From Streptomyces albofaciens JCM 4342 (GTDB lineage Bacteria > Actinomycetota > Actinomycetes > Streptomycetales > Streptomycetaceae), in contig NZ_PDCM01000001.1 of the NCBI RefSeq assembly GCF_008634025.1, positions 4,682,501-4,746,500 on the forward strand: a stretch of 64,000 nt of DNA, given 5' to 3'. Positions 13,964 through 20,789 of the stretch are shown here, one piece after another (within the stretch, counting starts at the first letter, position 1; each line of letters begins with the position of its first letter). The translations under genes and the position numbers were made by a program. A model generated the notes under the pieces. The model had not been told where the DNA came from, ran no database searches, and was given only the letters and a program-made list of their open reading frames with translations.

Positions 13964-14716
13964 ATGAGTGCCATGAGTGCCCATGCGCCCATCAATGCCC
14001 TTCAGCGCCGTTCCCGTCGTTCTCTGACCGTCCGGAGAGGCTCGTCCGTGCATCGCTGGCTATCCGAAGGGCGCCGATCGGCGGTGAGCCTGGTCATTGC
14101 GGTGTGCACGGCAGTGGTCCTTCCCATGGACAGCGTCGTGCGGATTTCGGCAATGGACGTCGGCGTGTTCGTACTGTTCGCCTATCTGGTCCCTTACCTC
14201 GCGATCACCTTGACCGCTTTCCTGCGCGTCGCTCCGGAGCGGGTCCGCTCGTGGGCACACCGCGAAGCCCGTGGCACGTTCATGCAGCGTTACGTCCTCG
14301 GGACCGCGCCCGGACCAGGGGCGTCGCTCTTCATCGCGGCCGCCGCGCTGGTGGTGGCGGTGGTGTGGCTTCCCGGCCGCCTCGCCACCACATTCTCCGC
14401 CCTTCCTCGTACGCTGATGGCTTTCGCTCTCGTGGTCGTCGCCTGGATCTGCGTGGTCGTGGCCTTCGCGGTCACCTTCCAGGCCGACAATCTCGTGGAG
14501 GACGAGCGAGCGCTCGACTTTCCCGGAGAAGGGACTCCGGCCTGGGCCGACTACGTCTATTTCGCCTTGGCGGCGATGACGACGTTCGGCACCACCGATG
14601 TCAACGTGACGTCACGGGACATGCGCCGGACCGTGGCGGCGAATACGGTCATCGCCTTCGTCTTCAACACCGTCACGGTCGCAAGCCTCGTATCCGCACT
14701 AGAGGCTGTCCCGTAA
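13964..14716 (+). CDS. DUF1345 membrane protein, stop codon supplied by IS end
   Basis: A four- to five-helix inner-membrane protein of the DUF1345 family (function unknown). The family block is clear: [40 protein letters not shown] and [11 protein letters not shown]. The insertion sequence entered at CTAG (14699-14702), so the protein now ends ...SALEAVP using the IS terminus for its last codons and stop. Joining the flanks across the IS gives ...SALGGG and a TAG at 16733-16735, so the native end was only one residue shorter. The protein is probably still functional. The exact start is uncertain; ATG at 13964 or the next one at 13973 are options. Confidence 0.85.
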
Positions 14717-15140
14717 ATCACCAGGGACGTGCAGGTTGAGCTGCTCGTTTGCTTGTCATCCGGTGAGGGTCAGGTTGTGCAGGCGGGCGATGCCGAGCAT
14801 GGCGTGGTGGGCGCCGTGGCCTCTGAGGCGGCAGTCGCGCAGGATCTTCCAGCTCTTCATGTGAGCGAAGGCGTGCTCGACGCGGGCACGGACCTTGCGG
14901 TGGGAGGCGTTGTGCTCTTCCTTCCAGGCGGGCAGTTCTTCGTCCTTGCGCCGGCGGTAGTGCGGGATGGTCAAGCCGGTACCGCGGTAGCCGCCGTCTG
15001 CGATCACCATGGGGGTGGTGCCGACGGCAGCCTTCGCGCCGGAGTCCTCCCAGGCCCGGCAGTCGTTGCGGTTGCCGGGCAGCGGCTTGCCGACGGCGAC
15101 GACCAGGCAGGAGTCGGCGTCGATGACGACCTGATGGTTA

Positions 15141-16286
15141 CTGAGGTTGTCCGGGTGTTGTCGTAAGGGCTGACTTCTGGTGATCGTCGCAGTAGGCCGA
15201 AGTCATGAGGTATCCGCAAGGCGGTGGCCTGACGGCTGAGCGGCGGGCGTTTCGCGAGCGCATCCGGATGGATGCGGCCGCGATGTTCGCCGCCGGGCAG
15301 GCCAGTGATGTGATCGCGAAGCGGCTGCGGGTCAGCGTCCGCTCGGTACAGCGGTGGCGCCGGATCTGGCAGGACACGGGGCGGCAGGGCTTGCGCTCGC
15401 AAGGGCCGGCAGCCCGGCCAGCACTGAGCGAAGCCTTGTTCTCGGTGCTGGAGCAGGAACTGGCCAAGGGGCCGGTGGCGCATGGCTGGCCGGACCAGAC
15501 CTGGACCCTGGCACGGATCCGCACGCTCATCGGACGCCGGTTCCACAAGAGCTTCACCCTCTCGGGTATCGCGAAGATGCTGCGGCGGCACGGCTGGTCC
15601 CATCAGGTGCCGGCCCGGCGGGCGCTGGAGCGCGATGAGGAGGCGGTGGCCGGCTGGGTGAAGGACACGTGGCCCACGGTGGAAGCGGTGCGGCGGCGCT
15701 CGGGGCCTGGCTGTGCTTCGAGGATGAGGCCGGCTTCTCGGTGACGCCGCCCATCCGCCGCACCTGGGCCCAGCGCGGCCACACGCCGCTCATCCGGGTC
15801 CGGGGACGTTCCCAGCGCCGCTTTTCGATCGCCGCTTTGGCCTGCTACCGCCCCGGCCGACGCTCCCGCCTGATCTATAGGCCCAAGCGGCACGGCAACG
15901 TCAAGGAGGCCAGGCGCCGCAGCTTCACCTGGAGCGATTACCGTGACCTGCTCATCGCAGCCCACCAGCAGCTGGGCGGCCCGATCGCCGTCGTCTGGGA
16001 CAACCTGAACGTGCACAAGGACGCCCGACTGCGGGCTTTCATCGACAGCCGAGACTGGATCACCGTTCACTACCTGCCGCCCTACGCTCCCGACCTCAAC
16101 CCCGTCGAAGGCATCTGGTCCCTTCTGCGTCGCAGATGCCAGGCCAATGCCGCCTTCACCGATCCCGACGACCTCATGCAGGCCCTCCGCCGCGGCCTGC
16201 GCCAGCTCCAGCACCGCAGCGACGTCATCGACAGCTGCCTCGCCGCAACAGGACTGCCTTTAACGACAACACCCGGACAACCTCAG
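15141..16286. mobile_element. IS630-family insertion sequence nested in the IS5 element
   Basis: The terminal inverted repeats are excellent: CTGAGGTTGTCCGGGTGTTG from 15141 and its complement ending at 16286, extending further to about 24 bp. TA dinucleotides at 15139-15140 and 16287-16288 flank it, the expected IS630/Tc1-type target duplication. Length is 1146 bp. Confidence 0.93.
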
Positions 16287-16289
16287 TAG
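15205..16289 (+). CDS. IS630-family transposase in two overlapping frames
   Basis: The first frame (15205 to about 15700) encodes the helix-turn-helix part: FAAGQASDVIAKRLRVSVRS and VQRWRRIWQDTG. The second frame (from about 15690 to 16289) encodes the DDE domain: WLCFEDEAGFSVTPP (first Asp), VVWDNLNVHKDAR (second Asp) and YLPPYAPDLNPVEGIW (Glu). A -1 shift in the GC-rich overlap around 15690-15705 joins them. Many actinobacterial IS630 copies have this two-frame arrangement, so it may be programmed frameshifting rather than a mutation. The second frame runs into the right inverted repeat for its last codons. Confidence 0.85.
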
Positions 16290-16802
16290 TGGAGTAACGG
16301 TAGTTCTTGCTGGAGGCGGCCACGGCCCGGTCGCGGGTGGGGACCAGCGTGCCGTCCACGATGAGCACGGTGTTCTTGCGGAACCGCCGCCGGGGTTGGA
16401 GGGCGAGAGCCGGTCCGAGGTGGCCGACGATCCGGTCGGCCGCGGACTTGGAGATGCCGAAGAGCGGGGCGAGTTGGCGCAGGGTGAGGTTGGTGCGCCA
16501 GTACGCGGCCACCAGCAGCACCCGGTCCTCAAGCGGCAACGACCACGGCCGGCCCTTGCGGACCGGATCGGCGCCCTCGCGCCGCAACGCGGTGATCAGC
16601 TTGTTGAACTGCCGTGGGCTCAGCCCGGTGAACGGACCTATCCACGAGGGATCCGACGCCTTGATCACACCAGCCACGGCAAGATCGTCTCACCTCTGAC
16701 CGGCAGTTACGGGACAGCCTCTAGGCGGCGGCTAGCATTCCAGCGGTAACGGTACGGCGTACAGCGTATGGCGTGACAATGTGCGCCCGCGACGGGCCAC
16801 CT

Positions 16803-18423: not shown

Positions 18424-19008
18424 GTGCGGGGTACGGTCCGCGCCGGACGGCGGTGCGAGGGCGAGCGGGCGGCCTGGTTCCTGTGCCGGCTGGTTGCCAT
18501 GGGCCTCCGGCAGAGCCTGGTGGACGACGATCGGGCCGCGGAGTCGGTGCGGAACATCGTCTATGTGTCCAACTTCGCCGGGCTGCGCACAACGTTTCTG
18601 GACCTGTACTGCAAGGAAGGCTCCCACCCCTATATGGAGCTGGAACGCATGAGCAACGGCGTGCTGTCCCATTCCACGGTCAGCCGCTTCGTCAGCGGGG
18701 TGACCGGTCGGCCCAGCCGGCAGTTCGTCCTCGCTTCCGCCCGGGTGTGCGGTATGCGGGGCGTGGCCCCCAACGAGTGGGCCAGGCATGGAGCCGGGCG
18801 GAGGAATGCCGACTGGAAGACCCGCGCAGAGCTCTCTGCCGTAACGCCGAGTGGGACCGTCAGCGTCGAGCATCAGAGAATGGGAGCTGGGGCATGGATG
18901 GCCTTCAGGAGGTGCACGCGTCACTACCGGTGTCCGGCGGGAGCCGGAGTACTTCGCCAGAATCTGCATACCGGCCTGAAGGGCTCGGTTCGCCGATTCG
19001 GACGATAA
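18424..19008 (+). CDS. Helix-turn-helix protein, possibly truncated
   Basis: Residues around FLDLYCKEGSHPYMELERMS, then NGVLSHSTVSRFVSGVTGRP and FVLASARVCGM form the N-terminal HTH typical of large Streptomyces regulators and XRE-like proteins (ELERRS...LSRSTVSDLLxG...VxAFVRACG). After about residue 130 the sequence is Arg-rich and unlike the family, so the downstream sensor or ATPase part seems lost. GTG at 18424 is the longest start; ATG at 18499 is an alternative. The cytochrome P450 gene begins 480 bp downstream on the same strand, but no link is evident. The gap 18230-18423 shows only a GCATCGGGCGGCGGC-like repeat and no gene. Confidence 0.55.
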   Translation: MRGTVRAGRRCEGERAAWFLCRLVAMGLRQSLVDDDRAAESVRNIVYVSNFAGLRTTFLDLYCKEGSHPYMELERMSNGVLSHSTVSRFVSGVTGRPSRQFVLASARVCGMRGVAPNEWARHGAGRRNADWKTRAELSAVTPSGTVSVEHQRMGAGAWMAFRRCTRHYRCPAGAGVLRQNLHTGLKGSVRRFGR

Positions 19009-19488: not shown

Positions 19489-20646
19489 GTGAGCGTGAGA
19501 GAAATGCGCCGATTCCGGCGTGATCCGCTTCAATACATCGAAGACTGCGCACGCCGGAGCCCGGTGGAGGTGTTCCGGCTCCCGTGGGGCGCCTGGTGCG
19601 TGAGGGACACCGATCTGGCGCTCACGGTGTTGCGCGACCCGGCCTTCCACAGCGGCATGTCCACCTTCTTCGGGGACATGCTGCCTTCGCGAACCGCCCA
19701 GATCGCCCTCGGCCGCGCCGTCCGGGACCTGATGCGGGCGCACCTGCCCACCTGCCGTCAGCGAGTGGCCGAGGCCGCAGCCGGGCTCGGCCCGGTCAGC
19801 CAGTGGCCCGAAGCCGGGCCGCTGCTGGTGTACCGGTGTACGGCGGACGTGCTGCTGCACCCCGGTGTCCCACCGGCACTACGGCGGCAGATGGCACAGG
19901 CCGTGTCGGCCGGGCTGACCGCCCGCCAGCCGTACAAGCGACAACGGGCACGGGCGGAACTGCTGCGCCCCAGACTTCTGGCCTCGATCACCGGACATGT
20001 CCGCAGCCGCCGGATGCACAGTCCCGCAGCGGGCGAGCCGCAGGACCTGCTGGACGCCGTGATCGGAGCCTGCCCCGAGAGGCTCACTGATCGGACCGTG
20101 GCAGGCCTTTACGTGCTGCTGTTCCAGTCGATCGTAGGCAACATCGGCTATGCGGTGGCGTGGTCGCTGCTGCTGGCCTGTCTCCACCACCCACCCGGCC
20201 CGCCATGGCCGTGGCCCGCCGAATGGCTGGTGCGCGAGGCCGCTCGCCACCGCCCGTTCGTCTGGATGGTCGGCCGACGCGTCCCCCACCCCCTCGAATT
20301 CGGCGGCCTCCCGTTCTCAGCAGGCACGATCCTGTCGGTCAGTCCCTATCTCCTGCACCACGACTCGCACCGTTGGGACCGACCCGAGACGTTCCGCCCC
20401 GAACGCTGGAACGAACCAGGCGGGCAAGGCCCCTACCTCCCCTTCAGCGCCGGCCCTTTCACCTGCGCCGGCGCGGCCGTCGCGCACAGCCTGATCACCG
20501 AGGCGGTCACCGCCCTGTCACAGGACGCCCGCCTGACCGTCAACGGCGGCGATGCCCGGCCCCTGGTGTCCGGCTCTGTCCTGCCCCGCCCCTTCACCCT
20601 GCGCCGCGCCCTCAAGGCCCCCGCCCGGCTCGCGTTGATGAGATGA
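19489..20646 (+). CDS. Cytochrome P450 next to a micro-peptide gene
   Basis: A 385-residue bacterial P450. The heme loop is FSAGPFTCAGAAVA with Cys326; the K-helix ExxR is EAAR (Glu250-Arg253), followed by PFVWMVGRRVPHPLEFGG and the meander FRPERWNEPG. The I helix reads LYVLLFQSIVGNIGYAVAW and lacks the usual acid-alcohol pair (E/D-T), a trait also seen in P450s that couple aromatic rings rather than hydroxylate. The GTG at 19489 is chosen because GGGGGGAGGG lies 6 bp before it; upstream in-frame sequence is not P450-like. Sixteen bases after the stop a 23-residue aromatic-rich peptide gene starts, and a perfect terminator closes the pair, so the enzyme is a candidate peptide-crosslinking P450. 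No ferredoxin is nearby. Confidence 0.92.
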   Translation: MSVREMRRFRRDPLQYIEDCARRSPVEVFRLPWGAWCVRDTDLALTVLRDPAFHSGMSTFFGDMLPSRTAQIALGRAVRDLMRAHLPTCRQRVAEAAAGLGPVSQWPEAGPLLVYRCTADVLLHPGVPPALRRQMAQAVSAGLTARQPYKRQRARAELLRPRLLASITGHVRSRRMHSPAAGEPQDLLDAVIGACPERLTDRTVAGLYVLLFQSIVGNIGYAVAWSLLLACLHHPPGPPWPWPAEWLVREAARHRPFVWMVGRRVPHPLEFGGLPFSAGTILSVSPYLLHHDSHRWDRPETFRPERWNEPGGQGPYLPFSAGPFTCAGAAVAHSLITEAVTALSQDARLTVNGGDARPLVSGSVLPRPFTLRRALKAPARLALMR

Positions 20647-20661
20647 GGGGAGGTGAATGAC

Positions 20662-20733
20662 ATGATCGCTGCTATCCGACGCATCCTCTGGAACAAGCCC
20701 GCCAGTTACTGGGAGCCGAATGTCTGGCTCTGA
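20662..20733 (+). CDS. Candidate RiPP precursor peptide for the adjacent P450
   Basis: A 23-codon gene. The ATG at 20662 has GGGGAGG with an 8-bp spacing, an ideal ribosome site, and lies 15 bp after the P450 stop. The peptide opens with a short amphipathic basic segment (MIAAIRRILWNKP) and ends with ASYWEPNVWL, giving Trp10, Tyr16, Trp17 and Trp22 plus Pro13 and Pro19. A perfect 17-bp hairpin terminator begins 17 bp after the stop. Very short aromatic-rich precursors beside a lone P450 are the hallmark of biarylitide-, cittilin- and tryptorubin-type peptides. The C-terminus matches neither the M-x-Y-x-H biarylitide core nor the WYIWY tryptorubin core. A GTG at 20653 is in frame but poorly placed for translation. 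Confidence 0.72.
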   Translation: MIAAIRRILWNKPASYWEPNVWL

Positions 20734-20750
20734 CAGTCCCGGTTTGCCCT

Positions 20751-20789
20751 GGTGGCCCGCGCGCCATGGCCAATGGCGCGCGGGCCACC
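20751..20789 (+). terminator. Perfect 17-bp hairpin terminator after P450/peptide pair
   Basis: Arms GGTGGCCCGCGCGCCAT (20751-20767) and ATGGCGCGCGGGCCACC (20773-20789) pair without mismatch around GGCCA. Its position right after the 23-codon gene supports that gene being the last cistron of the transcript. The remaining gap to 21113 shows no gene. Confidence 0.9.

Follow-up and report, generated by a model that had tools for sequence, protein, structure and literature searches.

A conserved short peptide gene downstream of a cytochrome P450 gene in Streptomyces albofaciens: a candidate P450-modified RiPP locus

Background

Does a very short open reading frame (ORF) that closely follows a cytochrome P450 gene encode the substrate of that enzyme? 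The question is raised by a locus of Streptomyces albofaciens JCM 4342, within the 64,000-nucleotide stretch of DNA analysed here (hereafter, the window). Among the known peptides with aromatic cross-links, the cihunamides carry a Trp-Trp link at i+3, and the cittilins have a Tyr-rich core and a cittilin-type P450. An initial annotation of the window read the locus as a candidate for a P450-modified RiPP. In the present study, we found that the conservation of the gene pair and a constraint specific to the frame of the short ORF support this reading, in which the cross-link itself is predicted.

Results and discussion

The gene pair in the window

The product of the upstream gene (Table 1) matches the Pfam p450 model (E = 2.9e-20) and has both the heme loop FSAGPFTCAG, including C326, and the motif E250-A-A-R253. 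Residues E250, R253, G322, and C326 are invariant among 22 aligned P450s, namely that of the window and 21 homologues. The acid-alcohol pair is absent from the I-helix stretch SIVGNIGYAVAW, and no such pair was seen in any of the 22 P450s when the alignment was read by eye. The intact heme loop and ExxR motif and the lack of the acid-alcohol pair that had been described for this enzyme are borne out. Homologues of the enzyme are about 50-87% identical to it. The nearest solved structure by sequence is PDB 9ulw ('Cytochrome P450'), which is only distantly related (residues 11-375 matched, E = 1.4e-26) and for which a literature search with the code returned no paper.

Table 1. Positions of the features of the P450-peptide locus within the window
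Feature	Position	Strand	Basis
Cytochrome P450 gene, predicted peptide cross-linking enzyme	19489..20646	+	GTG start at 19489, TGA stop at 20646 (translation); 385 aa, Pfam p450, homologues, tree
Ribosome-binding site GGGGAGG	20647..20653	+	8 nt before ATG; similar sequence in relatives
Precursor peptide gene, MIAAIRRILWNKPASYWEPNVWL	20662..20733	+	ATG at 20662, stop at 20731-20733, 23 aa; conserved at P450 3' end, codon test
W17 codon, only invariant residue among aligned precursors	20710..20712	+	34 aligned precursors
W22 codon, second aromatic position	20725..20727	+	Second Trp/Tyr in 54/55 precursors
Perfect 17-bp hairpin with 5-nt loop and no T-run; probable transcript end	20751..20789	+	

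The gap of 15 bp between the P450 stop codon and the ATG, the spacing of the GGGGAGG sequence, and the 23-residue peptide ending in ASYWEPNVWL are all as given in the initial annotation. An alternative in-frame start, GTG, is located at 20653. Sequences of the AGGAGG/GGGAGG type occur at the same upstream place in the relatives (upstream bases of 28 listed). In MIAAIRRILWNKPASYWEPNVWL, the putative leader comprises about residues 1-14 and the putative core about residues 15-23; the peptide matches no Pfam or NCBIfam model. The downstream sequence, described earlier as a perfect 17-bp terminator, does form a hairpin of 17 consecutive pairs (folding z of -3.4 over 106 nt and -6.1 over 75 nt). 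However, because it has no T-run and is absent from the listing of a consensus terminator scan, its role as a terminator is only probable. Of 17 relatives, 14 reach a folding z of at most -2 in the 75 nt past the precursor stop codon, and the other three lie above this cut-off (L011, -1.96; L060, -1.79; L046, -0.44).

Conservation of the pair among relatives

Homologues of the P450 were collected from a Streptomyces sample of 392 genomes (16 with E <= 1e-40, ten of which, the window's included, are at least 51% identical), from a genome contig search (52 loci, some of them remote), and from draws at the level of the class (4 of 394, all in the genus of the window) and the family (18 of 297, including hyalucidin-type loci). 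We defined the P450 family by a tblastn score of more than 330 bits, which gave 73 fetched loci, 54 of them distinct. Two further loci (L071 and L111), with partial P450 matches, were joined by hand after their precursors had been seen, making 75 loci, of which 56 are distinct.

A short ORF is present at the 3' end of the P450 gene in 53 of the 54 distinct loci defined by score alone, a count from which the two loci added by hand are left out for that reason; with them, the count is 55 of 56. In the 54 loci, 52 precursors were recognised by pattern and one (L068) by reading; the exception, from Nocardia transvalensis (L067), keeps the P450 gene and has no recognisable precursor. The loci carry eleven actinobacterial genus names: Streptomyces, Kitasatospora, Embleya, Nocardia, Saccharothrix, Amycolatopsis, Actinosynnema, Saccharopolyspora, Streptoalloteichus, Actinophytocola, and Streptosporangium. 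The precursors start between -73 and +163 relative to the P450 stop codon, 34 of the 54 listed lying between -4 and +8, and exactly one ORF with the family motif was found in 70 of the 73 fetched loci (repeats included), the other three having none by that pattern. In 33 control loci with remote P450s (below 80 bits), which were treated alike, a downstream ORF of 14-36 aa preceded by a ribosome-binding site occurred in seven, and the family motif, judged by eye, in none; two further controls (L008 and L106) gave no row and were not counted.

The precursor is intact in four loci whose P450 gene is interrupted or only partly matching (L110, L071, L111, and L051), which may reflect decay or sequencing error. 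For example, the P450 of L110 has an in-frame stop codon, and in L051 the match breaks off at residue 322 and the precursor begins 163 nt past the stop codon of the P450 frame.

Constraint on the short ORF

Comparison of 17 pairs of relatives gave 57 single-base codon differences in the ORF, of which 33 are synonymous where 26.6% would be expected (p = 6.0e-7); no excess is seen in the +1 frame (18 of 58, expected 31.6%) or the +2 frame (8 of 54, expected 31.1%) of the same pairs. These pairs were re-chosen from the tree and the test was repeated, since some of the pairs in an earlier set of 16 had shared branches; that set gave 36 of 65 synonymous differences (p = 1.2e-6), and 20 of 61 and 5 of 54 in the other frames. 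The ORF has a mean identity of 0.91 in the 16-pair set, compared without gaps, against 0.78 over the preceding 20 nt and 0.48 over the 60 nt that follow the stop codon. Chi-square tests of variable sites by codon position, which had few sites to work on, were not significant in three clades (p = 0.39, 0.81, and 0.14). The short ORF is constrained as a protein, in its own frame only. Two kinds of evidence had been named in advance as speaking against a precursor gene, homologous P450 loci that lack a conserved short ORF and substitutions that disregard codon position; what we found was an ORF kept almost throughout the family and substitutions that respect its reading frame. Thus, it is very likely that the ORF is a conserved protein-coding precursor gene with a dedicated P450.

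Aromatic residues and core types

The precursors are 17-28 aa long and follow the consensus MxAxxRRIFxNKPARxWxxxxWx, in which the Trp at the position of W17 is the sole invariant residue (34 aligned). All but one (L012) of 55 precursors, which comprise 46 distinct sequences, have a second Trp or Tyr two to seven residues after it, at +2 (26), +3 (1), +4 (1), +5 (18), +6 (6), or +7 (2). Many of the long cores have a Pro two residues past the invariant Trp (WEP, WDP, and WNP), which would fit a turn. The initial annotation placed the link among residues 10, 16, 17, and 22. In the clade of the window (seven precursors), W10 is replaced by Arg in four and Y16 by Phe or Leu in two, whereas W17 and W22 are unchanged; this variation in close relatives speaks against residues 10 and 16 and leads us to favour residues 17 and 22. 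Our best guess, which we consider likely, is that the predicted cross-link joins W17 and W22. The choice of a Trp-Trp pair is less certain in WYWY cores, where three aromatic residues compete as partners.

The type of core, short (WxW) or long (W...W/Y), was mapped on the P450 tree for 51 of the 53 family rows, with L012 and L067 left out. Two changes are enough to explain its distribution, and at least 12 are needed in each of 200 shuffles; short and long cores occupy two sides of the tree with a single exception (L057). The supports of this tree were obtained by a quick method and it contains long branches. Such tracking of the P450 phylogeny by the core type is as predicted by co-evolution of enzyme and substrate.

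Genomic neighbourhood

We compared ORFs of at least 90 aa, a size below which genes would be missed, around the P450 gene in 47 loci (the window and 46 others), and no neighbour beyond the P450 is common to the clade. The most widely shared ORFs occur in 8 of the 47, nearly all from one Nocardia group, and other shared groups comprise up to six loci at scattered places. Since no neighbour is common to the clade, the P450 is left as the sole candidate enzyme linked to the precursor, and with so minimal a pair, removal of the leader would be left to an unlinked peptidase. Eight close Nocardia loci (L037-L041, L043, L044, and L070) share an ORF about 1.3-2 kb upstream of the P450 stop codon, which does not occur in the rest of the family.

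Comparison with known families

No NCBIfam model was matched by any of the 29 precursors long enough to be scanned (34 aligned), in agreement with the initial annotation, which recognised no known motif in the core. The most similar family that we found is that of hyalucidin A (NCBIfam NF053510), in which, as here, the P450 gene comes first and a precursor of about 28-30 aa with an aromatic C terminus lies directly downstream. Hence, the enzyme-first order, which had been regarded as unusual, is real and general in the clade but not unique to it. Hyalucidin-type precursors have ...KSxLNxR...WYLYHHI or a close sequence, whereas those of the window family have RRIFxNKPA; the two hyalucidin-type precursors that were scanned match NF053510 (4.6e-10 and 8.4e-9), and none of the 29 scannable window-family precursors does. 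The hyalucidin-type P450s (12 loci) are 32-36% identical to that of the window over the aligned part, and the two groups form separate clades (SH-aLRT 100 each) that meet by long branches, where the tree gives no mutual order. Furthermore, the title of the hyalucidin paper, as cited in PMC13417212, speaks of tandem P450 catalysis, whereas a single P450 is the only clade-wide gene here. Two other loci were noted in this comparison. In Corallococcus sp. CA053C (L077), a myxobacterial precursor with a different core, MKKLARALLTALSIRSKDKTYEWLDYRSI, begins 28 nt past the P450 stop codon and scores just above the cut-off of the hyalucidin model (35.4 against 35). In a genome of the genus of the window (L018, G183), a P450 with 38% identity stands before MRKFIRRLQDVTAKQAWRIW; this peptide, possibly of a further group, fits neither the window family nor the hyalucidin model.

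The atropopeptides (NCBIfam NF038372), as described in PMC11450843, share with the window family the two-gene locus, the small leader, the C-terminal Trp-rich core, and the single P450; a KSLK-type leader motif belongs to their definition (PMC11450843). A scan of loci L001-L107 for KSLK matched L007 and L107 only and none of the listed family precursors. In both of these loci the precursor gene comes before that of the P450, in contrast to its downstream position in the window family. The window P450 is remote in the tree from atropopeptide P450s, two of which were included. As for a Trp at core position 2, another atropopeptide feature, the precursors do have an invariant Trp, whose place in the core depends on a boundary that we infer. 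The window's own genome (9.25 Mb) also carries, as a separate locus, a tryptorubin-type cluster (L007, G000:C2 at about 2.20 Mb), with the precursor MKLINSLKKKMKAEKSLKAYAWYIWY beside its own P450; this precursor ends in AWYIWY and matches NF038372 (E = 4.1e-15), and the P450 matches that of the window with E = 1.2e-6 over residues 179-336. In S. varsoviensis, too, a KSLK precursor (L107) is encoded separately from the member of the window family (L029).

Biarylitides are P450-cross-linked aromatic peptides from a minimal locus (PMC13417212), as is predicted for the product of the window pair, but with a precursor of 5 aa, whereas the window family has 17-28 aa with a conserved leader, and 23 aa in the window itself. 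The cyptides of Nam 2023 (roseovertin, rubrin, and lapparbin), compared here by their descriptions in reviews, likewise have aromatic links made by P450s, Trp-His or Trp-Tyr at i+3 and Tyr-Trp at i+2 (PMC11002830, PMC12299652). According to PMC13417212, 787 P450s were placed by Nam et al. in other classes of cyptides, and Liu 2024 reported 11 classes and 1057 clusters, according to PMC12299652; with so many P450s and clusters, the window family may be among the groups predicted there. The P450 of the published tsukirubin cluster of S. tsukubensis was not found among the drawn genomes (best 64%). Our literature search, to which the surveys Nam 2023, He 2023, Hu 2023, and Liu 2024 were known through citations and reviews, showed no description of the window family in its listings, and a search for WYWY or NKPAR with P450 gave no match. 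By the features compared, the distinction of the family from atropopeptides, hyalucidins, and biarylitides is supported; whether it is undescribed so far is uncertain, and an earlier listing is possible.

Proposed pathway and alternatives

We consider it quite probable, from sequence comparison, that the locus is a two-gene RiPP locus in which the leader docks on the P450, W17 and W22 are cross-linked, and the leader is then trimmed. On the transcript, the P450 would come first and the precursor second. Residues 1-14 (MxAxxRRIFxNKPA) would act as the leader that docks on the P450 and would bring the C-terminal core SYWEPNVWL into the active site, where the enzyme would take two hydrogens and couple the indole of W17 to that of W22 by a C-C or C-N bond, with the W-E/D/N-P turn holding the ring. 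Afterwards, the leader may be trimmed by a housekeeping peptidase. We infer each of these elements, namely the role of the leader, the cross-link, the atoms that it joins, and the cleavage. The gene pair very probably yields a small cross-linked peptide outside the catalogued families tested. It is conceivable, if rather unlikely, that the P450 modifies the peptide otherwise, by a Trp-Tyr link (Y16-W22, or one to the Tyr in WYWY), by several links, or by forming a hyalucidin-like polycycle. A Trp-Tyr link at i+3 is possible in WYWY cores, hyalucidin-type P450s form a neighbouring clade, and the hyalucidin paper, as cited in PMC13417212, names a benzofuranoindoline in its title. However, the substitutions of W10 and Y16 in the clade of the window, where W17 and W22 stay, argue for the Trp-Trp link, as do the several cores that have only two aromatic residues after the leader (WNW, WDW, and WKW).

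That the peptide is instead a translated regulatory or structural partner of the P450, such as a chaperone or a small subunit, and not its substrate, seems improbable. Its gene adjoins the P450 gene, almost always as a single copy, and no shared neighbour for processing or export accompanies it, all of which would suit such a partner; however, the most conserved residues are aromatic side chains near the free C terminus, and their spacing changes with the P450 clade, a pattern that is substrate-like. Moreover, such peptides are substrates in tryptorubin-type systems (PMC11450843). We think it very improbable that the locus is a variant of the tryptorubin-type atropopeptides: one P450 with a small Trp-rich precursor does make a two-gene locus of that kind, and the WYWY cores resemble AWYIWY, but the listed precursors lack the KSLK motif and a match to NF038372, and the two atropopeptide P450s, whose precursors lie upstream, join the tree on a branch of length 3.26. 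A chance reading frame beside an ordinary small-molecule oxidase is scarcely credible. The gene has only 72 bp, alternative frames exist, and the position-wise chi-square tests were not significant, yet the frame is kept across the family, constraint is found in this frame only, and identity drops sharply past the stop codon.

We tentatively suggest that these loci may represent a RiPP family not described before. In it, the invariant Trp would be coupled by a single P450 to another Trp or Tyr, the P450 clade determining the ring size between i+2 and i+7, and the product of the member in the window would be a Trp-Trp macrocycle, W-E-P-N-V-W. This predicted ring is larger than that of the i+3 Trp-Trp link of cihunamides. 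The P450s of such a family would be a natural panel for macrocycles of chosen size. P450 macrocyclases for which a small leader suffices are sought for making rigid cyclic peptides. The family provides about 55 enzymes, each with a matched natural substrate and a ring size predicted by clade, and so a direct way to test which features of the enzyme determine ring size. Because of the small size of the peptide gene and the lack of a Pfam or NCBIfam match to its product, a locus of this kind can look like a lone P450 gene.

Other features of the window

The neighbours of the pair in the window include genes for an FAD oxidoreductase, Hsp20, and an alcohol dehydrogenase. Upstream of the P450 gene, an ORF at 18424-19008 has a weak match to HTH_31, below the cut-off, and is possibly a decayed regulator. 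Further upstream, nested insertion sequences occupy 14699-16724. The outer element has 18-bp perfect inverted repeats, and the inner element (15139-16288), with 26-bp perfect inverted repeats and winged-helix and DDE_3 ORFs, appears to split the DDE transposase gene of the outer one.
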